Virus record (IMG/VR): IMGVR_UViG_3300005841_000047
Location: 1 to 44,053 of that record
Direction: 5' to 3' (one strand)
Source: a virus
DNA: 44,053 bases
Both the position numbers and the translations under genes were made by a program. Position 1 is the first letter of the stretch, and every line of letters starts with the position of its first letter. The notes beneath the pieces are model-generated. The model saw nothing but the letters and a program-made list of their open reading frames with translations. It was not told where the DNA came from and did no database searches. Positions 1-43,984 of this stretch are shown here, piece after piece.

Positions 1-295
1 GGTTCCGCGTTCCCGAGTTTTTGGTTTACGCCGTGGTGCGTATTCAATTATCGAATGCGAACCGAAATTAGAGCCATGACCCTCGGAATCGTCTTCAGTC
101 GGCCGGCGTATTGTAGCGGCGCGAAATGATTGCAAAGGGTGCACGAAATAACTGCAAAGGGTCGCGGTGTCGCTTTGGCACACCCGCAAATGTGTAGCGG
201 CTGCCGGTCCGTTGGAAAGGGTAATCTGATCCCCAATGCAGCCATGCTGCCGGGAGGCTGCCCGTGAGGCGCTATAGGGCTGCTTGGCTTCAGGA
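1..295. other. Gene-free right-end region of the phage genome (window left edge)
   Basis: No convincing gene is present between the window start and the stop codon of the tail tip gene. The stretch holds two close copies of the end motif at 121-161 and a weaker resemblance at about 62-76 (CCGAAATTAGAGCC). It should contain the phage terminus and perhaps a few bases of host DNA. No clear terminator for the late operon was recognised. Confidence 0.6.
121..161 (+). repeat. Transposase end-binding-like sites, window-left end
   Basis: Two direct copies, GCGAAATGATTGCAAAGGG at 121-139 and GCACGAAATAACTGCAAAG at 141-159, share the core GAAAT(A/G)A-TGCAAAGGG with about 20-bp phasing. Inverted versions occur at the other end of the element, at 43794-43814 and 43826-43846. 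Paired, phased and inverted at opposite ends is what Mu-family transposase sites look like. The role is inferred from position and symmetry. Confidence 0.7.
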
Positions 296-4810: not shown

Positions 4811-6894
4811 TTTTTCCCTCCCGCCACGGGTTGGCTGAGCTTGACCAGGCTCGGGTTGGCGGCGGGCAGGAAGGGATGACCGCCGAAGTTCAGATAATTG
4901 TCAAACTTGGCCTGGCACGTCTCGGCGCGCAGATCGCAGCCGGGCCAAAGCGCGACGTCGTCCTCGGCCTCGGGCAATGGATCGAACGGCCGGTTGAGCC
5001 ACACCGTCAAAGCGCCGACGACTACGTCCGTGCTGTTGAGAATGGCGCGGCGCTGTAGCGCGGCGCCGGTACCGAACTCAATCCAGCCACCGGAAAACCA
5101 ATGCTCGGCAAAGTCCACGGACGGCCCGGCCAGGGAATGCAACGCCAGGGCAAACGGGTAAGCCGCTGAAGGCGCCGAGAGAACCTGAGCAGTGAACTGC
5201 CAATCGTCCTTGTCCAGGCCGCAGCCGGGGGAAAACAACGCATGATTGCATGGGACCTGGAGATAGAAGCGCGGTATCTTGCGATCGAACACTGTGCTGG
5301 CAGTGACGGCTTTGGCCGCGATCTTCGCGCCCTGGAGTTTCACTGATGCAATCTCGCCGGTGAAGAGAACCTCTGCGTCAGTGACGACAGGAGGGACGCC
5401 CGTGCTACCCTGGCGGATTGTCAGCTTCAATGGCGCTTCCATCTTCAGCGTGGCGAATAGGAGCAAGGGTGAACAGACAGCCGCGCTGTCACCAGCGCTG
5501 CTACGGAGGAAGGCTGTCACCTGCACTGCGTCTTGTTCGAGCGCGATGCCTTGCTGGATGTCGCCGTGCTCGATCCTGGCGGCCGCGTAGATGTCATCGC
5601 CCAGTGTCACGTCCGTCTCGTAGCTGGTGTAGCGATCGGTGATCGTCTCGCCGCCCAGGTCGTGGGTGAATTCGTAGAGGTAACAACGCTGAGTGAGTTG
5701 GCCGAGTGTTTCCCCGATCGTTTCGCCGGTCGCTGGCGCGTATTCAGCCGGCAGCTCGATCAATTGCAGTGTCGCGGCGGCCGCGTGTGGATTTTGCCAG
5801 TCGATCTGGAGCGTGGGTTTGTCCAGGCGAACCAGGAGCAGCGGGGTGACGATGGTGTCTGCGCGTGAGTAGTCTGCCCCGATCGCGGCCAGGAGTGTGA
5901 CGGTTGTGTCGTCTAACGCCGACACGATGGCAGGCAGGATGCCTGCCCCACTATCGAGGAGCGCGATGTAATCGCCGACTTTCAGACTGTTGATGTCGGC
6001 GACCTGGAGGATGGTGTCGGCGGCGGCCACGTCGGCGGTGAGCTGCGCGGCGCTCATCCAGCCAGGTGTCCAGAACGATGCGCTGGCGTACTCGAGAAAG
6101 AAGCGCAAGAACTGGAATGCGGCCGATTGCCCGTCCAGGAAGTACGGCAGTTTGAATGCCCGGTGTGCTGCCTGCGGATAAAAGGTCTGCGCTTGCTGAC
6201 GTCCGAAGCCGATGCTTTCACGGAGCAAATTGAGCGCAACCGAATCTTCGATCCCGACGAAGTTGGCGCGGTACGGCAACAGCCTGGGCGCAGTCGAGTA
6301 GCCGGCCGGCGGCAGTGGGCCGGCGGTAAAGTCGGCTGCCGGCGGCACGAGGGCGTAACCCGCAGGGCCATCCTCGATGAACTGAACGTCGAATCTGAGT
6401 GTGTCAGTCGAGGTCCAGGTATGCTCGCGTTTGGCGAGCCGGCCCCAGAGCAACGGCGCGACCAGGACCTCGCCGGGTTCCGCATCGGGCCAGACGGGCG
6501 GTGTACTCGAGTAAATCTCCCACTGCGACCAATCTTCTTTCCAGACCAAGTAAAGCGCGGAGGTGGGAATGGGATCGATCCAGCGGACCGCTGCCGGCCA
6601 GAACGGGCAGAGAACCGGGGCCTCGCCGTCCAGGCTTTCAGGATCAGCGAGATTGCGTAGCGCACCAATGAGCTGTCGAGCATCAGCGCCGGATCGGGTG
6701 GCCTGGTACTCGAGCTGGCAGCGGAGCGTGGCCGAATGTGGCCGGCGCGTCTCGCGATTGCTCAGGCCCACGGCGCCGCCCTGGAGGATTGTGAAGGTGC
6801 TTTTGAGCGGCTGAAGCCAGTCGGGCGGATCGGCAAGCAGGACGACGGAGAGTTCGCCGATCGAGCCGCCGAAGTCGAAGGTCGTAGGGATCAT
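4807..6894 (-). CDS. Phage minor tail protein with BR0599/DUF2163-like C-terminus
   Basis: The 695-residue protein lies just before the NlpC/P60 gene, the usual position of distal tail proteins. The C-terminal part has the pattern of the phage BR0599 (DUF2163) family: a conserved Cys cluster (CNHALFSPGCGLDK), later WPGCDLRAETCQAKF, and the closing NFGGHPFLPA. The N-terminal half is a separate structural domain with several Trp-rich segments. The start at 6894 is an ATGA overlap with the upstream gene. It probably forms part of the distal tail or baseplate hub; the family assignment is by pattern, not search. Confidence 0.75.
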   Translation of the reverse strand: MIPTTFDFGGSIGELSVVLLADPPDWLQPLKSTFTILQGGAVGLSNRETRRPHSATLRCQLEYQATRSGADARQLIGALRNLADPESLDGEAPVLCPFWPAAVRWIDPIPTSALYLVWKEDWSQWEIYSSTPPVWPDAEPGEVLVAPLLWGRLAKREHTWTSTDTLRFDVQFIEDGPAGYALVPPAADFTAGPLPPAGYSTAPRLLPYRANFVGIEDSVALNLLRESIGFGRQQAQTFYPQAAHRAFKLPYFLDGQSAAFQFLRFFLEYASASFWTPGWMSAAQLTADVAAADTILQVADINSLKVGDYIALLDSGAGILPAIVSALDDTTVTLLAAIGADYSRADTIVTPLLLVRLDKPTLQIDWQNPHAAAATLQLIELPAEYAPATGETIGETLGQLTQRCYLYEFTHDLGGETITDRYTSYETDVTLGDDIYAAARIEHGDIQQGIALEQDAVQVTAFLRSSAGDSAAVCSPLLLFATLKMEAPLKLTIRQGSTGVPPVVTDAEVLFTGEIASVKLQGAKIAAKAVTASTVFDRKIPRFYLQVPCNHALFSPGCGLDKDDWQFTAQVLSAPSAAYPFALALHSLAGPSVDFAEHWFSGGWIEFGTGAALQRRAILNSTDVVVGALTVWLNRPFDPLPEAEDDVALWPGCDLRAETCQAKFDNYLNFGGHPFLPAANPSLVKLSQPVAGGKK

Positions 6895-26325: not shown

Positions 26326-26517
26326 TCATTCCTCGAAAAATTTCAGCGGCTTCAGCCGCGCGATCACTTCGCCTTTGTCCATCACCACGACGTTGCCTTC
26401 CGCATCGATGGCAGGCGTGTCGCCGATCAGCCCGGCGTAACGGCCGGCCGTCTCGCGGTCGTAGCCTTGGCTCATGATCTCAGCCACCAATTCTTTGAAT
26501 GCTTCCAGGTCCATCAT
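26326..26517 (-). CDS. Small acidic protein
   Basis: The 63-residue protein (MMDLEAFKELVAEIMSQGYD and a hairpin GNVVVMDKGEVIARLKPL) is coupled to the preceding stop by ATGA overlap. No family recognised. Its position next to the metallopeptidase-like head protein suggests a partner or an immunity-like role, which is a guess. Confidence 0.55.
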   Translation of the reverse strand: MMDLEAFKELVAEIMSQGYDRETAGRYAGLIGDTPAIDAEGNVVVMDKGEVIARLKPLKFFEE

Positions 26518-27989
26518 AACCACCCCAGTTTGGTAAACAGTTTGTCGATTGCCTGCGCGATCGGCGCGAAGTCTTCCGGCGTCCACTGCTCAAATTCGGC
26601 CTTCGCCAACCGCGCTTTCAGTTGCGTCTTCAACGGCTCGCTGTGAGAGCGCTCGGTAATGTATTGGCTGTACGCCCGAGCCCAGATTTCTTTGTCGCTC
26701 AACAAATAATTCTGAATGTGATCGCGGATGTCCCAAGAGGTTGTGGCTGCCATCTTCGCTTGCAATCCAGCAATCGCCTGGGTCTGTCTGGCCGCGTCCA
26801 GGACTTCCTTGAGTTCACCTGTTTGGCTGGCGTACGCCCCCTTTGATCCGATGCCTTCGAGGTCCAGAAAATGCCCGGACTCATGCACGGTGGTCAGCGC
26901 CGGCCAGTCTCCGCTGGTGCGCACGCCGATGTGGTTGGCGGTTGATTTTCCGTCCGGGCCAATGTTCCGCTGAAAATAGCCGTAGCTCGATTTCTTGCTG
27001 CTGCGCAGCGGTATCTTCGGCAGGTTCCCATCATCATGCACCTCATCCATCGCCGCGATGCCGACTTGCACCTGTGTCCGCAGGTTTCCTTTCACCTTGA
27101 GATCAAGCGCGGCTGATACCGGGTTGGTCCGCTCTGTGGGCTTGGGTGCCTCAACGGTTGCCTCTTCGCCCTGGCCCTTCCAGCGCATCGTGTCGCCTTC
27201 GAGCACGAGCTGGTCCCCGAACGCGGCTTTCCATTTCTCAATCAGCTCCGGCTCGATACCGTCGGTGCTCGCCTTCAGATTGTCGTTGAAATCTTCCGGC
27301 GCCGGTGGCGTGACGGCCTCGCCGGGTTTGAGCAGCCCCAATGATTCAGTCTCGTCGCGGTCCGCGTCCTCGACATCATGGCCGCAGCCCCAACCCCACG
27401 GACCCCAGGGCACGCCGAAGTCTTGATTGATGGCCTTCCAGATCGAACTGGTTTTCAGAAACACTTTATCCTCGAACTGGGCGTGCCAATCCCGCGGTTC
27501 CTTCACGTCTATCACGCGGAGGAAGCGTTGCGCCGGGTAAGCGTCCAACACATCCGGGTCGAGCCCCTGTTTGCGATATCCGTAACTTTGGGCCTGCTTG
27601 ACCTGGGTGTTGAAGATCAGTTCAAGCCGTTTCTGCGAGGTAATATCTTTCAGGCCGCCGCGGTCATCGGGCGGGACCAGGTCAGCCATGCCTTCCTTGA
27701 TCGCGAACTCGCGCATGAGTTCGACGAAGCGCGCGCGGCCGCCGATCTTGAGAGCAGTCTCGCCGTTCGGCAGAGTCTCGCGATTGCCCGCAAGGAAATC
27801 GTTGATCCCGTCCATGCCGCGTTGGAGGAAGCGGCCGTTCTCGATGCGCGATGAAAAGAACGCGCGCTCGAGCAATGCCGTGGGCACGTCTGCCCATTCG
27901 CTGGAGCTGAGCGGGGCGGTGATGATGGTCTTGCTCCCGAGTTTGTCGCGGGCTTCTTCGAAGGGCAAAGGTTGGACGAAAACGCTCAC
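26514..27989 (-). CDS. Mu gpF-like head protein with C-terminal zinc metallopeptidase domain
   Basis: From the GTG at 27989 (GTGA overlap) the protein is 491 residues. Residues about 119-220 match the gpF/SPP1 gp7 pattern: RLELIFNTQ, LDPDVLDAYPAQRFLRV, RDWHAQFEDKVF and WGPWGWGCGHDVEDADRDE. The C-terminal part has a zincin signature, HESGH at 369-373 with a likely third ligand Glu434 in KEIWARAYSQY. gpF-like proteins fused to effector enzymes are known. Here the gene lies upstream of the lysis block, not after the portal. A shorter protein with the same gpF-like motif is encoded at 40352-40999 on the other strand. Confidence 0.78.
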   Translation of the reverse strand: MSVFVQPLPFEEARDKLGSKTIITAPLSSSEWADVPTALLERAFFSSRIENGRFLQRGMDGINDFLAGNRETLPNGETALKIGGRARFVELMREFAIKEGMADLVPPDDRGGLKDITSQKRLELIFNTQVKQAQSYGYRKQGLDPDVLDAYPAQRFLRVIDVKEPRDWHAQFEDKVFLKTSSIWKAINQDFGVPWGPWGWGCGHDVEDADRDETESLGLLKPGEAVTPPAPEDFNDNLKASTDGIEPELIEKWKAAFGDQLVLEGDTMRWKGQGEEATVEAPKPTERTNPVSAALDLKVKGNLRTQVQVGIAAMDEVHDDGNLPKIPLRSSKKSSYGYFQRNIGPDGKSTANHIGVRTSGDWPALTTVHESGHFLDLEGIGSKGAYASQTGELKEVLDAARQTQAIAGLQAKMAATTSWDIRDHIQNYLLSDKEIWARAYSQYITERSHSEPLKTQLKARLAKAEFEQWTPEDFAPIAQAIDKLFTKLGWL

Positions 27990-30582: not shown

Positions 30583-31098
30583 TCAGTCGTGGCGGTAATG
30601 TGGGGCGGGCATCTTGCCTGCCTGAGGCAGGTTGGACAAACATGCACGCGTCTTCTGTTCGAGCTTCCTTACCAGCGCGGCGAACCGCGGTTCGGTTTCC
30701 ATTCGGTTCTTCACGGCGTGGATTGAGTGAATCATGGTGCCATGATCTCTCCCTCCCATCATTTGGCCCATTGATGAGAGACTCGCCGCCGAGCAACAAC
30801 GTAGGAGCCAGACGGTGACGTGACGCGGCCAGGTGAACTGCTCTTCCCTGCTACGCCCGAAAACTTCAGTTTCCGAAACTTTGAACTCCTCGCAGGTCAA
30901 TTCGAGGATCTTCACTAGCGCCTCGTCCATCGCCGCAGCGATCGATTCCATGAATTCGACTCGGTCCTTGAGCCGATGCAATCGCTTCAATTTCCGCAGG
31001 CGCTCTTCCATCGCGGCGATCTCCGCGTCAATATCGATGCCATTGCCGCTTGCGTGTCCGGCTCCGTTGTTGTTGCTCGCTGTGGTTGGCTCATTCAT
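30583..31098 (-). CDS. DnaA domain IV-like DNA-binding protein
   Basis: From the ATG at 31098 (GGAGGA ribosome site) the product is 171 residues. It has a disordered N-terminus, a coiled region (EERLRKLKRLHRLKDRV), and a DnaA domain IV-type segment: CEEFKVSETEVFGRSREEQF, then PRHVTVWLLRCCSAASLSSM and the signature GGRDHGTMIHSI. Domain IV binds the DnaA box, with GGRDHxTVxHA contacting DNA. The AAA+ domain is absent. The last 15 residues come from a host-type palindromic repeat. It may bind host oriC-type sites or regulate phage replication. Confidence 0.8.
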   Translation of the reverse strand: MNEPTTASNNNGAGHASGNGIDIDAEIAAMEERLRKLKRLHRLKDRVEFMESIAAAMDEALVKILELTCEEFKVSETEVFGRSREEQFTWPRHVTVWLLRCCSAASLSSMGQMMGGRDHGTMIHSIHAVKNRMETEPRFAALVRKLEQKTRACLSNLPQAGKMPAPHYRHD

Positions 31099-31111
31099 CG
31101 TTTCCTCCGTT

Positions 31112-31324
31112 TCATAGGTGGTCCTCGATCGCGCCGAGGGCGTCGCGCAGCTTGTCCTCGCACCAGGTAAAGGCATCGGCAAGGAGCGCCACCGCGCAGC
31201 CAAACAGGCCGATGTAAATGAAAAGCGTCAGCCAGAAAACCAGGCAAAGCTGCCTTACGCCAATTCGCGCCAATTCGCGCCAATTCGCGTAAACTGCTTT
31301 GGTTGCTTTGTCGGTTGGGTTCAT
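31112..31324 (-). CDS. Small membrane protein with repeat-encoded N-terminus
   Basis: The 70-residue protein has one TM segment (LCLVFWLTLFIYIGLFGCAV) and a short helical end. Residues 10-25 (VYANWRELARIGVRQ) are encoded by AATTGGCGCG-type repeats, the same family as in the tail fibre gene. The start has an ATGA overlap and a GGAGGGA ribosome site. Function unknown. Confidence 0.55.
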   Translation of the reverse strand: MNPTDKATKAVYANWRELARIGVRQLCLVFWLTLFIYIGLFGCAVALLADAFTWCEDKLRDALGAIEDHL

Positions 31325-39706: not shown

Positions 39707-39925
39707 TCAGCGTGCAGCCTCTGCCGGCAGCGGCAGAGTCGGGACAGGAGCTGAGGTTTCGAGGATCTGCTTGACGTAGAAGAGAAGCGCCTGCTCGGCG
39801 GCGAAGCCAACCTTCATGCCGCGCCGGCTGACGGCCTTCGTAAAATGTTGGTGAACCCGAGGGGTGACGTTGACCGCGGAAAGCCGGGTTCGCTTTTCTC
39901 GCTTGGTATTTCGCAAAGTTCTCAT
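39707..39925 (-). CDS. Ribbon-helix-helix-like early protein
   Basis: From the ATG at 39925 (TTG at 39931 is an alternative) the product is about 72 residues. RLSAVNVTPRVHQHFTKAVS followed by RRGMKVGFAAEQALLFYVKQ fits a CopG/Arc-type fold: a short strand, then two helices. It is the first gene of the leftward operon, only about 10 bp behind the predicted transcription start, so the mRNA would be almost leaderless. It may be an early autoregulator (Ner-like in role). Confidence 0.6.
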   Translation of the reverse strand: MRTLRNTKREKRTRLSAVNVTPRVHQHFTKAVSRRGMKVGFAAEQALLFYVKQILETSAPVPTLPLPAEAAR

Positions 39926-39932
39926 TTTCAAC

Positions 39933-40012: not shown

Positions 40013-40339
40013 GTGCCAGAGCCGGGCTACAAAAGCGTGACTTTGACGAAGGACGTAAAAGCAATGGTGCAGAGCTTGGCTAAGCTCCTCGGCTGGTCGG
40101 AGAACCAGATCATCGAAGCTTGCGTTGGCCAAATTATCGAACAAAGCAAGCTTCCACCGGAGGAACGGTCGCTGCCGGCCATCATCCACTATGCATGGGA
40201 GCGCAGGCAGGCAGCTCAGAAGAAGGCTGGAGGGGCAGCCGGGGGAGGAACACCAGGCCAAACGGCTAAGGTTGGGTTAACGCCCAACGCATCGGACGCT
40301 TTTCCATCACCTAGGAATCCGCCGCTGAAGAGCAGGTGA
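40013..40339 (+). CDS. Ribbon-helix-helix-like protein, candidate repressor
   Basis: The 108-residue protein starts at a GTG. YKSVTLTKDVKAMVQSLAKL followed by LGWSENQIIEACVGQIIEQ fits an RHH-type N-terminal domain (strand KSVTLT and two helices). The C-terminal half is low complexity and Gly/Pro-rich. Divergent from the early operon and beside its operator, it occupies the position of the Mu repressor c. That it is the repressor is inferred from position alone. Confidence 0.6.
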   Translation: MPEPGYKSVTLTKDVKAMVQSLAKLLGWSENQIIEACVGQIIEQSKLPPEERSLPAIIHYAWERRQAAQKKAGGAAGGGTPGQTAKVGLTPNASDAFPSPRNPPLKSR

Positions 40340-40351
40340 GGGCGAGGCCGA

Positions 40352-40999
40352 ATGAAGATCGAGGATACAATCGCGAACGCCGCTGCTGATGCCTTCTTTC
40401 CAGACCCGGACATTTCAGCCTCACTCAGAAAACGGCTACTCCTTGTGTTGACGCCATATCAGCGTCCGAAGTTCGTGAGTGATTGTTTACAGCTTCTCCG
40501 ACAAGCCGGTCATACAACCGTCAGGGGAACAATCAAAGACTTCGCCAGCGAGGCGCGCCTAAACCTGTTTTTCGACACCGTCAAAAGCCTGCAATCCAAT
40601 TCCCGATATTGGATGTCGGGAATGGACCCAGATGTCTTGGAGGGGTTCCCAGCACAAGCACTAGTTCGGGTGCTTACCGATGTTCCTGAGCGAATCGATT
40701 GGCCAAGCCGTTGGCTATCGGAGGGCGGGCGTTTGTTCGAAGGAAGAATGATTGCCCTGAAGTGGGAGCCCATCTGGAGCAAGATCAGCGAATTTGAACT
40801 CCCCTGGCCGCCCTTCCAATTAGGCAGCGGATACGACGTTGAGGACGTGGACTGCGACGAAGCGCGCTCGTTGGGCTTCAGCATACCGACGAACCTGAGA
40901 GCCAAGGTGACCATCGGCCAAGACAGGGACGCTCTTCGGCAACGATTCTCCGCAGCTCTCAACAAACTCATCAGCACGCCTCCGGTACTGCCACCATGA
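40352..40999 (+). CDS. Stand-alone gpF-like domain protein (paralogue of the virion head protein)
   Basis: The 215-residue protein shares an unusual region with the gpF-like head protein at 26514-27989. MDPDVLEGFPAQALVRV matches LDPDVLDAYPAQRFLRV, and WPPFQLGSGYDVEDVDCDEA matches WGPWGWGCGHDVEDADRDE, with SLGF against SLGL after it (residues about 69-177 here, 119-220 there). The metallopeptidase domain is missing and the Cys of the GCG motif is Ser. GAGG-type ribosome site; ATGA overlap with a membrane protein gene. A decoy or immunity protein acting on heads is one idea; function unknown. Confidence 0.7.
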   Translation: MKIEDTIANAAADAFFPDPDISASLRKRLLLVLTPYQRPKFVSDCLQLLRQAGHTTVRGTIKDFASEARLNLFFDTVKSLQSNSRYWMSGMDPDVLEGFPAQALVRVLTDVPERIDWPSRWLSEGGRLFEGRMIALKWEPIWSKISEFELPWPPFQLGSGYDVEDVDCDEARSLGFSIPTNLRAKVTIGQDRDALRQRFSAALNKLISTPPVLPP

Positions 41000-41400
41000 A
41001 CCCGTTCGATTCGTACGCCCCAGGCAGCCTGGCTCACCGCGAAGTGAAAGAGGAGCCAGCCACGTATTTGGAAAGGATACGCAAGCAATCGTGTTACAAA
41101 ACGCTGCGGTCGCTGGTCTCACTTCTGACCGCTGTGATTGCCTGCGGTGGCATCGTAACCGTGGCCGTAGCGATCAAGGCATTCACGCTCCTGGCAGGAA
41201 GCCAGACTGAGGCGTTGCAAATCGGGAGCGCCCAATGGCGCGTCACCTTTCTGGGGGCTCTGGGATTCCTGTTGTCCGGCCTCTTCACTATCGTCGTGGC
41301 GATCGCATTCCGCCAAGCCTCGCTCGCCCTGGTTGACATTGCCGACATGCTGATCGACCGCGGCCGGAAGCAATGGCAGTTCAGCGGCGAATCACAGTGA
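40996..41400 (+). CDS. Two-TM membrane protein
   Basis: The 134-residue protein has two hydrophobic segments (SLLTAVIACGGIVTVAVAIK and FLGALGFLLSGLFTIVVAIA) and a helical end. Coupled by ATGA to the gpF-like gene, so the two are probably co-translated. In phage cargo, such soluble/membrane pairs are often superinfection-exclusion or defence modules, which is only an inference here. Confidence 0.65.
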   Translation: MNPFDSYAPGSLAHREVKEEPATYLERIRKQSCYKTLRSLVSLLTAVIACGGIVTVAVAIKAFTLLAGSQTEALQIGSAQWRVTFLGALGFLLSGLFTIVVAIAFRQASLALVDIADMLIDRGRKQWQFSGESQ

Positions 41401-41421: not shown

Positions 41422-41850
41422 ATGCCGCCCGAGAAATTGGCCCTGAAAACTGTCCTGGAAACTCTGGGCGCTGAGCTGCGCCGCTCTGCAGAGGCGCTAA
41501 AAGCTCTGCCAGCGAATAGCCGCGAGGCTCTGACCGCACAACAGGTTGAGGAACGCCTCGCTCGCGAAGCCGATCCCAACATGCGCGAAAGAGTGACCGC
41601 AGCGATCGTGCACTACTCGCATCACCTGAATTGGCCTCTGCTCTCGCAGGTGGAAGCCTCGTTTGTATATGAGCGGCTGAACGAGGCGGTCGCATTCGGT
41701 CGCTGGCTGCTAGCAAAAGCAGTCCCAGATCAGCCAAGATTTGATCAAGTCTGGATGGAATGGTTGCTCATCGAATACTGGAATTATGCAGGGCGGGCAC
41801 GGTGGCGGGATAGGCTGACAAGTCTTGTGGGAGATGACCTGCCTCAATGA
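41422..41850 (+). CDS. Helical cargo protein of unknown function
   Basis: The 142-residue protein is helix-rich (LETLGAELRRSAEALKALPA, VEERLAREADPNMRERVTAA) with an aromatic C-terminal region (WMEWLLIEYWNYAGRARWRD). It has no TM segment and no motif that I recognise. It starts 21 bp after the upstream gene, without a good ribosome site. Confidence 0.55.
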   Translation: MPPEKLALKTVLETLGAELRRSAEALKALPANSREALTAQQVEERLAREADPNMRERVTAAIVHYSHHLNWPLLSQVEASFVYERLNEAVAFGRWLLAKAVPDQPRFDQVWMEWLLIEYWNYAGRARWRDRLTSLVGDDLPQ

Positions 41851-42092: not shown

Positions 42093-43091
42093 ATGAGAGA
42101 ACAAAGGAAACTGATCTATAAGGATGCCGCCGGTGCAGGTACCGGTACCTTGCAGTCAGCGCTCACCGCGGCACTCGCACGTTTTCCCAAAGTCCCGTCG
42201 CGCCTTCAGAAACTGGGGACAGATAATAGCAGGGTCCAATTCATCAACCTAACTCGACTCAGCCAGGGAATGTTGATCGGGGTCTTTCACAAGTTGACAC
42301 CTGGCGCGGCCCAACAGGTTATTGAGATGGGCGAGGAAAAGCCGGAATGGCCCGTCGCATTAGTGCCAGCGAAGTCGGCAGAGAAGCCCAACAGGGAGTT
42401 TATTTCAGGCAGCCTCTACTTCGGGATTTGGAAAAACCACGTCATCCTTCATCAATCCGTCGCATGCAGAGCCTCTCACTTTCAGGAGCATCTGTCTTGG
42501 TTACTCTCCCGGCAAAAGCCCGGCGCTGAAAAGGGAGCGACGGCGCCCCAGCTCCTAATATCGCTGGGTGATCCTATAAACGAAAAGGTGCGCAAGAATC
42601 CCAAAACCCATGCCAAACGGGTTGTCCTTGGCAGTTCATTGAAGAGTGGCCCTGCACAGCCGCCGTCGAAGGCGACAAGCACCAAAGCAAAGTTCACTCT
42701 GAAAGGCGGCTTGTGGCAGGCAATCAAAAGCATCCTTATAGAAGTTAAAGGGGAGGTCCCCGCATTCCTCCTCGACGATCAGCTCGGGGAGGATGACATT
42801 CATGGAGCCTTGGAACTCTGGTGTTCCAAACGAAAAGCGGAAACCACCGCCGGTGAGGTGCTGGCCGGGTTGGGCCGGGCACTGAGCGATTCCAATGCGG
42901 ATTACACCGTCGTACTTGCCGATGGCACAAAGATTGAGAGAACCGAGATGAAAGTTGAGGATTATTTCTCGGTCGAATGCGTCCAGCGCCAACCGGTAGC
43001 GGAATCGCTTTTTGGATCGATGGTTGATTACCTGAAGCGGCTAATCGATAATCAGACTGTGATCGAGAAAGAAAGCTTCGGCAACCTGTGA
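42093..43091 (+). CDS. Soluble cargo protein (possibly DUF6731-like), unknown function
   Basis: The 332-residue protein has alpha/beta character (SRVQFINLTRLSQGMLIGVF, FISGSLYFGIWKNHVILHQS, ASHFQEHLSWLL) with a linker rich in Lys and Pro near 195-215, then a C-terminal part (GEVPAFLLDDQLG, VVLADGTKIERTEMKVEDYF). The N-terminal pattern resembles DUF6731-type proteins found in defence-like contexts, but this is a weak, by-eye resemblance. It overlaps a membrane protein gene by GTGA. Confidence 0.6.
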   Translation: MREQRKLIYKDAAGAGTGTLQSALTAALARFPKVPSRLQKLGTDNSRVQFINLTRLSQGMLIGVFHKLTPGAAQQVIEMGEEKPEWPVALVPAKSAEKPNREFISGSLYFGIWKNHVILHQSVACRASHFQEHLSWLLSRQKPGAEKGATAPQLLISLGDPINEKVRKNPKTHAKRVVLGSSLKSGPAQPPSKATSTKAKFTLKGGLWQAIKSILIEVKGEVPAFLLDDQLGEDDIHGALELWCSKRKAETTAGEVLAGLGRALSDSNADYTVVLADGTKIERTEMKVEDYFSVECVQRQPVAESLFGSMVDYLKRLIDNQTVIEKESFGNL

Positions 43092-43690
43092 AAGGTTTCA
43101 CGGCCATACGAGGCGTTCTCGGTGCGCTTCTTGTCGGCGCCGTAGCTTGGTTGGTGGTTATGCTCGGCATCAGAATCAGCATTCCGCCAAAGGTTCACGG
43201 TGCTCTTCTCGGGGCTGCCGCGATAGTATTTTCAATTTCTGAGGTCCACTTCCGCAACCTGCTGAGCGAACTCAACACTCTCTTTCGACGGGCCTCCTAT
43301 TCTGTCTGGCAAACGGAAAAACTTCAGCAAATCGTGCCGCAGGTACGCAGTAAAGTATGGCGGTCCTGGATGATCGCGCTCATCCTCAAATCCGCCGTAA
43401 TTTTCGCAGGCGCCCTTCTTCAGTGGGATGGTCTGCCTGGAACAATTGGCTTTTGCCTTTTGTTCGTTGGCTACGTCTGTCTTTTCTATTCTGGGCTCCT
43501 TTCGCTAAGCGCTTGGAGACATTTCCGAGGACTGGAAGCGCAGTGCGATGCCATCTATGCCGAGGAGATCGCTCGCAAGGAGCGCAAGAAATTGCACTCC
43601 GAAATCGAAAGTGAGAGGCCGCACGATTTCGCTGCTGATGAAACCCTCCAGGGTTACACTAAGTCAGCGCCCGGCTCTGGGAGTGGCTGA
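43088..43690 (+). CDS. Multi-TM membrane partner protein
   Basis: The 200-residue protein starts at GTG overlapping the upstream stop. It has four probable TM segments: GVLGALLVGAVAWLVVMLGI, a second near 38-52 (ALLGAAAIVFSIS), then ALILKSAVIFAGALLQ and GFCLLFVGYVCLFYSGLLSL. Two cytosolic or periplasmic helical parts follow, the C-terminal one charged (EIARKERKKLHSEIESER). The paired soluble/membrane layout resembles abortive infection or exclusion modules. No family recognised. Confidence 0.62.
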   Translation: MKGFTAIRGVLGALLVGAVAWLVVMLGIRISIPPKVHGALLGAAAIVFSISEVHFRNLLSELNTLFRRASYSVWQTEKLQQIVPQVRSKVWRSWMIALILKSAVIFAGALLQWDGLPGTIGFCLLFVGYVCLFYSGLLSLSAWRHFRGLEAQCDAIYAEEIARKERKKLHSEIESERPHDFAADETLQGYTKSAPGSGSG

Positions 43691-43771: not shown

Positions 43772-43926
43772 CCCTTTCGGTCACTCCAATCCACCCTTTG
43801 CAATCATTCCGTGCGGGCCAGCCTGGCGCTTTGCAATCATTCCGTGCCGTTCCCCCATTCGGCCTTCACAAACCCCACAGCTTCATTATCCTTCACCTTA
43901 TTTCACGATCGCTCAATCATTTCGGC
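43772..43926 (-). repeat. Transposase end-binding-like sites, window-right end
   Basis: On the minus strand, GCACGGAATGATTGCAAAGG (43794-43814) and GCACGGAATGATTGCAAAGC (43826-43846) are inverted with respect to the sites at 121-161. A degenerate version GGAGTGACCGAAAGGG is at 43772-43787, and GCCGAAATGATTGAGCGA is at 43909-43926. Multiple phased sites at each end are typical of MuA-type ends. Confidence 0.7.
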
Positions 43927-43959: not shown

Positions 43960-43984
43960 CCCTCTCCCATCCGATGGGAGAGGG
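43960..43984. repeat. Host-type hairpin CCCTCTCCCATC / GATGGGAGAGGG
   Basis: A perfect 12-bp inverted repeat with a 1-bp centre followed by CCGGGGTGAGGG. This is a widespread bacterial intergenic palindrome type and it probably marks host DNA just outside the prophage. Confidence 0.6.

Follow-up and report, generated by a model that had tools for sequence, protein, structure and literature searches.

The stretch of viral DNA analyzed here (the window, 44,053 nt) encodes a stand-alone MuF-like protein (40352-40999; hereafter the cargo), sharing a homologous core with the minor head/pilot proteins of phages such as Mu gpF and SPP1 gp7, on the strand opposite to the virion genes and behind a putative lysogeny switch. 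Proteins of this kind recur behind regulator genes in prophages of verrucomicrobial genomes and also occur outside recognized prophages. We assign a probability of a little under two in five to the reading that the cargo is a cytoplasmic or otherwise soluble MuF decoy that spoils portal/pilot loading in superinfecting phages.

A stand-alone MuF-like gene in a Mu-like phage

The window holds a Mu-like phage of verrucomicrobial type, with MuA-type end repeats in inverted orientation at both ends; the phage is therefore essentially complete and the cargo lies inside it. The minus strand carries transposase-like, MuB-like, Mu Gam-like, portal, large terminase, major head and tape-measure genes. 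The loci related to this phage come from verrucomicrobial genomes, and the nearest named relatives of its resident gpF-like protein over the whole length are those of Akkermansia phages. The outermost bases of the record resemble host flank, and a perfect 12-bp inverted repeat is located at 43960-43984. The early region of this transposing phage also encodes a small protein (30583-31203) in which a Pfam model recognizes the C-terminal HTH domain of DnaA (Bac_DnaA_C, E 3.3e-16). The features discussed below are as follows.

119..162, +: end repeats of MuA type (GCGCGAAATGATTGCAAAGGGT, GCACGAAATAACTGCAAAGGGT), marking one terminus of the phage
26514..27989, -: resident virion gpF-like protein (phrog_4529, E 1.8e-13; phrog_220, E 1.2e-5)
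39707..39931, -: small ribbon-helix-helix-like gene, divergent, called from its sequence and from the same arrangement in G007
40013..40339, +: ribbon-helix-helix-like regulator, likely the first operon gene (phrog_3887, transcriptional regulator, E 0.011, weak)
40352..40999, +: cargo, stand-alone MuF-like protein of 215 aa, intact ORF, MuF core at residues about 58-180
40996..41400, +: two-TM protein, hydrophobic segments at residues 36-69 and 82-116
41422..41850, +: 142-aa gene of the same run, no family matched
42093..43091, +: 332-aa protein of phage family phrog_3482, of unknown function (E 4.1e-28)
43088..43690, +: 200-aa membrane protein at the phage end, overlapping the preceding phrog_3482 gene, three hydrophobic segments
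43796..43924, -: end repeats of MuA type in inverted orientation (CTTTGCAATCATTCCGTGC twice, CCTTATTTCACG), marking the opposite terminus

BLASTP aligns 124 aa of the cargo with the resident gpF (44% identity, E 4e-24), and a six-frame search of the record matched one other place, again the resident gpF (E 3.9e-22). The first-pass annotation had aligned the two proteins by eye and had described the cargo as lacking the peptidase part; both segments that it quoted fall inside the BLASTP alignment, and the match stops before the C-terminal half of gpF. The two comparisons that it had proposed bear out this relationship. Profile-profile alignment of the stand-alone and virion MuF sets yielded a probability of 99.8 (E 1.6e-27, 142 columns), and the cores of the cargo model (mean pLDDT 82.7, residues about 61-180 mostly above 90) and of the less confident gpF model are predicted to share the same order of helices and strands. 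The best viral structure matches of the cargo model include head-morphogenesis/minor capsid proteins. Fold searches of solved structures in the PDB returned no usable match to the cargo and no recognizable DNA-binding fold and, with no similar solved structure, portal binding by the cargo cannot be modeled from a template. All near-invariant positions of a 55-sequence family (P100, W117, K137, W142, P151, P154, G160 and G175) are kept in the cargo, as would be expected if a binding surface had been preserved.

Outside the core, the cargo presents N-terminal helices and a C-terminal helix of its own. It has no virion N-terminal FSA-type motif region, no membrane segment by hydropathy and no C-terminal toxin/effector domain, and the protein ends 36 aa past the core. 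No family in Pfam, PHROG or PADLOC matched the cargo, and PADLOC defense models matched neither the cargo nor its four downstream genes, four orphan MuFs and the lipoprotein of L170. Similarly, PF04233 (Phage_Mu_F) matched none of 13 records at E 10, virion copies included, with controls that did match; this null says little about the fold, because the verrucomicrobial MuF branch lies beyond that model. Scans of viral and genome contigs with the single cargo protein revealed no close relative, and relatives surfaced only when alignments were used.

The resident gpF is composed of an N-terminal virion part, a MuF-like core (27303-27749) and a C-terminal metallopeptidase-like domain, and the phrog_220 family that it matches (E 1.2e-5) comprises minor head proteins and DNA pilots. 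Its sequence places it among the MuF-like minor head/pilot proteins, in a verrucomicrobial branch that is out of the reach of PF04233. Members of this branch are built of a conserved core followed by variable C-terminal parts, with a metallopeptidase in most near relatives, which is also the build of MuF polymorphic toxins (PMC5576092) and of polyvalent injected proteins (PMC5512222). Among the gpF relatives, we observed a 900-aa version (L007 9752-12457), one with an alternative C-terminus (L018 9548-11350) and one with a possible ADP-ribosyltransferase-like end and an adjoining integrase (L055 9935-10783). The differing C-termini of these three proteins suggest domain swapping of the kind seen in MuF polymorphic toxins.

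The cargo lies outside the head/packaging module, with one phage end on one side of it and, on the other, two small, divergent regulator-like genes (39707 and 40013) that probably constitute the lysogeny switch. It is not beside the portal (19.1-21.1 kb) or the terminase (21.7-23.9 kb), which are both on the minus strand, with the cargo at 40.4 kb on the plus strand; in the survey of Jamet et al. 2017 (PMC5576092), 85-87% of muf genes neighbor a portal or terminase gene. The position opposite to the virion and transposase genes, near the repressor region, had been recognized from the sequence and is confirmed, with regulator calls that are weak: the one for 40013 draws on a weak sequence match and on the synteny of G007, which shows the same divergent arrangement (L040 4608-4793, -; 4851-5141, +). 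The 40013 gene ends 12 bp before the cargo start, and the start codon of the two-TM gene overlaps the stop codon of the cargo (ATGA at 40996); as initially proposed, the two proteins are likely co-translated. Neither the two-TM protein nor the 42093 protein has a relative in the viral contigs. The closest relative of the window, G001, holds in the cargo slot only a lipoprotein gene, opposite to the early genes and with no MuF (L042 786-1322).

Origin and recurrence of stand-alone MuF proteins

The cargo was initially described as a copy of the resident gpF with Ser in place of Cys in its GCG motif. This is literally true of the pair and misleading as to its direction: among 84 dereplicated, typed virion homologues, the G-S/C-G motif presents Ser in 77 and Cys in 7, all of them in the resident gpF clade, and Cys is therefore the derived state. 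Furthermore, the cargo keeps a segment, RW..EGGRLFEGRMIALK, that is absent from the resident gpF clade and present in some form in all stand-alone copies and in nearly all virion homologues. The best relatives of the cargo are head proteins of other phages, at 51% identity, and the resident gpF ranks 92nd among its MuF hits. The RW segment, the Ser state and this rank argue against derivation from the resident gpF and led us to reject a recent duplication. The tree alone, inferred from about 160 columns, does not reject a grouping of cargo and resident gpF (AU p 0.33), nor does it reject the alternative grouping. Taken as a whole, the cargo sequence is best explained by descent from a different MuF lineage and not by decay of a duplicate of the resident gpF.

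We performed profile searches on related phages and on about 1,100 look-ups of same-phylum genomes, which are draft genomes and some of which were counted in more than one search. These searches identified, in verrucomicrobial phages and genomes, 12 stand-alone MuF proteins, cargo included, and one decayed remnant; short virion-type copies inside structural clusters (L261, L264, L260, L259) were not counted. The FSA-type virion N-terminal motif, recognizable in nearly all complete virion copies, is found in none of the 12. On the tree, 8 changes are needed, 4 of them forced by well-supported branches, which favors independent origins, although a single origin is still compatible with the tree (one clade not rejected, AU p 0.14). 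The gene orders around the copies in phages and prophages other than that of the window, and around the truncated copy of L165, are as follows.

L170: S24 repressor, lipoprotein, MuF, lysis genes; a Mu-like transposase lies across the switch
L177: HTH, zinc-ribbon-MuF (5598-6356), signal-peptide protein; this prophage also encodes MuB and a terminase
L169: HTH, MuF, later a TM gene
L071: HTH, MuF, holin, endolysin
L135: HTH-like gene, MuF
L165, 5814-6983: immediately after a vWA/PP2C/kinase trio, a lipoprotein, then a stand-alone MuF that is truncated and has an in-frame TGA
G007, remnant: RHH-like gene, BamE-domain lipoprotein, decayed MuF fragment

The prophage copies thus sit behind repressor or HTH genes, often beside a lipoprotein or membrane gene. 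A regulator lies directly or two genes upstream with Pfam backing in L170 (S24 repressor), L177, L169 and L071, and by eye or through a weak match in the window, L135 and G007. Among ten randomly drawn virion MuF genes, none had a recognizable regulator directly upstream. The recurrence of this neighborhood in other prophages fits a lysogenic role against superinfection. For two of the copies, those of L170 and L177, the nearest relative is the virion MuF of the same prophage.

Five stand-alone MuFs lie outside recognized prophages. Two are orthologues of 226 aa from a pair of genomes in one family, each flanked by era and uvrA (L191 1441-2121; L194 1336-2016), with no phage genes around them. 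They are 77% identical and differ by 68 nonsynonymous and 90 synonymous changes (dS about 1.05), and their dN/dS of 0.137, compared to 0.089 for era and 0.062 for uvrA in the same genome pair, indicates that these coding sequences are under purifying selection. The era-uvrA MuF is present in 2 of 11 genomes of that family; an empty site was sought in seven members of the family, in none of which uvrA was found beside era. The remaining three are a MuF in a small locus with HTH genes (L192/L213, G630), a GYF_2-MuF fusion beside moaA (L205 1033-1926) and a zinc-ribbon-MuF-TPR protein with a further zinc-finger-like part (L210 1219-2451). A wide distribution outside prophages in an unrelated role had been named as evidence against the initial proposal; such copies do exist, and they are too few for an unrelated, widespread role.

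Candidate functions of the cargo

As a decoy, the stand-alone core would be expressed in the lysogen, from the lysogenic side of the Mu-like prophage, and would imitate the portal-binding core of virion MuF/pilot proteins, competing for the portal of the superinfecting phage or for the pilot protein itself; with few functional MuF proteins loaded, the progeny would infect poorly and the lysogen would be protected. In SPP1, the MuF protein gp7 reaches the procapsid through the portal gp6 and supports infectivity rather than assembly (PMC6316719), so that a free core would most plausibly compete for the portal or pilot site. The poisoning of head assembly initially suggested is possible and was overstated, given that SPP1 without gp7 assembles normally and about 25% of its virions are infectious, a cost of about fourfold (PMC6316719). 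With the MuF protein dispensable for assembly and a fourfold loss at stake, the effect of a decoy could be small. Prophage proteins that target virion proteins are a proven strategy, as illustrated by Tab (PMC10884400), Tai (PMC11364771) and SieA (PMC10883804). Further observations speak against the decoy or restrict it: the GYF_2 and zinc-ribbon/TPR fusions in chromosomes could point to another role, the cargo matches no PADLOC defense family, and a decoy in L170 and L177, where the copy is nearest to the phage's own virion MuF, would threaten the prophage's own progeny unless it were off at induction.

In favor of an exclusion role, the envelope genes that occupy the cargo slot in relatives of the window are of a kind typical of exclusion modules: G001 has a lipoprotein there, and G007 a BamE-domain lipoprotein with the decayed MuF fragment. 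An alternative is that a MuF mimic and its membrane or lipoprotein neighbor act jointly at the envelope and jam the pilot protein ejected by an incoming phage, or its DNA channel, as P22 SieA or Ltp would. The overlap of the cargo with the two-TM gene, the lipoproteins directly before MuF in L170, L165 and G007 and the signal-peptide protein after MuF in L177 would agree with such an entry block, which we nevertheless regard as unlikely: these envelope neighbors are not recognizably related to each other and are absent at era-uvrA, L205 and L210, the closest relative of the window has its lipoprotein without a MuF, and the cargo itself lacks a membrane segment. Stand-alone MuFs are also found where such neighbors are missing, which makes it more likely that the two-TM gene and the other membrane genes of the slot serve exclusion or lysogenic conversion separately than that the cargo depends on them. 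The MuF core might instead have taken on a new role as a co-factor for host genes or for the lysogeny repressor, which would explain both its place behind HTH genes and its zinc-ribbon fusions; the GYF_2 fusion and the title of a reference cited by PMC6316719, which names SPP1 gp7 a DNA-binding protein, are in line with this. The era-uvrA and moaA-side copies have no adjoining regulator, however, and with no DNA-binding fold recognized in the cargo a regulatory role appears rather improbable. Much the same can be said of a host or lysogen function unrelated to phage defense, such as envelope homeostasis, which accounts for the non-prophage copies with adaptor domains but not for the prophage copies in the phage immunity region.

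Two further explanations carry still less weight. The decayed G007 fragment, the truncated L165 copy with its in-frame stop and the sporadic distribution are what would be expected of functionless passengers, that is, head-gene fragments copied into cargo slots by illegitimate recombination and slowly lost. The intact cargo ORF with all its near-invariant residues, the dN/dS of the era-uvrA pair and the repeated placement behind regulators make this quite improbable. The first-pass annotation had also proposed that the cargo neutralizes an incoming effector, a reading that we consider highly improbable. Homology to part of the same protein would favor an immunity role of the cargo, directed at the effector half of the MuF-type proteins that related phages inject, but the cargo has no counterpart of the effector/peptidase half, and nothing suggests immunity-protein behavior. 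It resembles the carrier domain and not a toxin-binding partner, and would lack effector specificity because carrier domains vary less than C-terminal parts. A MuF toxin gene is usually followed immediately by its immunity gene, a small ORF (PMC5576092), whereas the cargo lies 12 kb from gpF on the other strand.

Relation to known phage and host systems

The cargo shares with MuF minor head/pilot proteins a homologous core and structure matches to head morphogenesis proteins, and the resident gpF, with its variable C-terminal domain, behaves like the carrier of a MuF polymorphic toxin (PMC5576092). Unlike virion MuF proteins and MuF toxins, the cargo has neither the N-terminal motif nor an effector domain and is encoded outside the packaging module on the other strand. 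It resembles Tab and Tai, a group of virion-assembly blockers of prophages and satellites (PMC10884400, PMC11364771), in being a prophage-borne protein that spoils virion formation of related phages, an activity that for the cargo is only proposed. Tab of JBD26 is likewise encoded opposite to the late genes, in its case with its own promoter (PMC10884400). The targets of Tab and Tai are tail proteins, and Tab has no similarity to any protein of known function, whereas the cargo, by its sequence, is itself derived from a virion protein. With SieA and Ltp (PMC10883804, PMC3952083), the cargo would share lysogenic expression, an adjoining envelope protein and, possibly, ejection proteins as the target; SieA, however, is a membrane protein that acts alone (PMC10883804), and the cargo is predicted to be soluble and is related to the ejected or portal-bound protein itself.

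Up to now, MuF proteins have been known as virion parts and toxin carriers encoded in the packaging module, and the open-access literature yielded no report of stand-alone, orphan or domesticated MuF genes in immunity regions or chromosomes; as far as that literature shows, their occurrence beside repressors and in chromosomes is new here. Further cases may be sought through the presence of the core, the absence of the FSA motif and a location outside the packaging module. Copies beside repressors, and copies maintained in chromosomes by selection, would imply that phage structural proteins have been put to a new use, which may be directed against phages. A broader and more doubtful proposition, which we put forward tentatively, is that prophages and bacteria have repeatedly extracted portal-binding/pilot domains of MuF type from virion genes and kept them as stand-alone antiviral mimics, both in prophage immunity operons and as chromosomal genes; these would be the prokaryotic equivalent of capsid proteins domesticated as restriction factors. 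Animals offer a parallel in Fv1-like domesticated viral structural proteins, with a viral structural gene kept in the host genome under selection. The parallel is only an analogy, in which restriction by the stand-alone MuFs would be hypothetical. Given the recurrence of free copies beside repressors and in chromosomes, bacteria and prophages may have turned a part of the virion into a weapon against phages.
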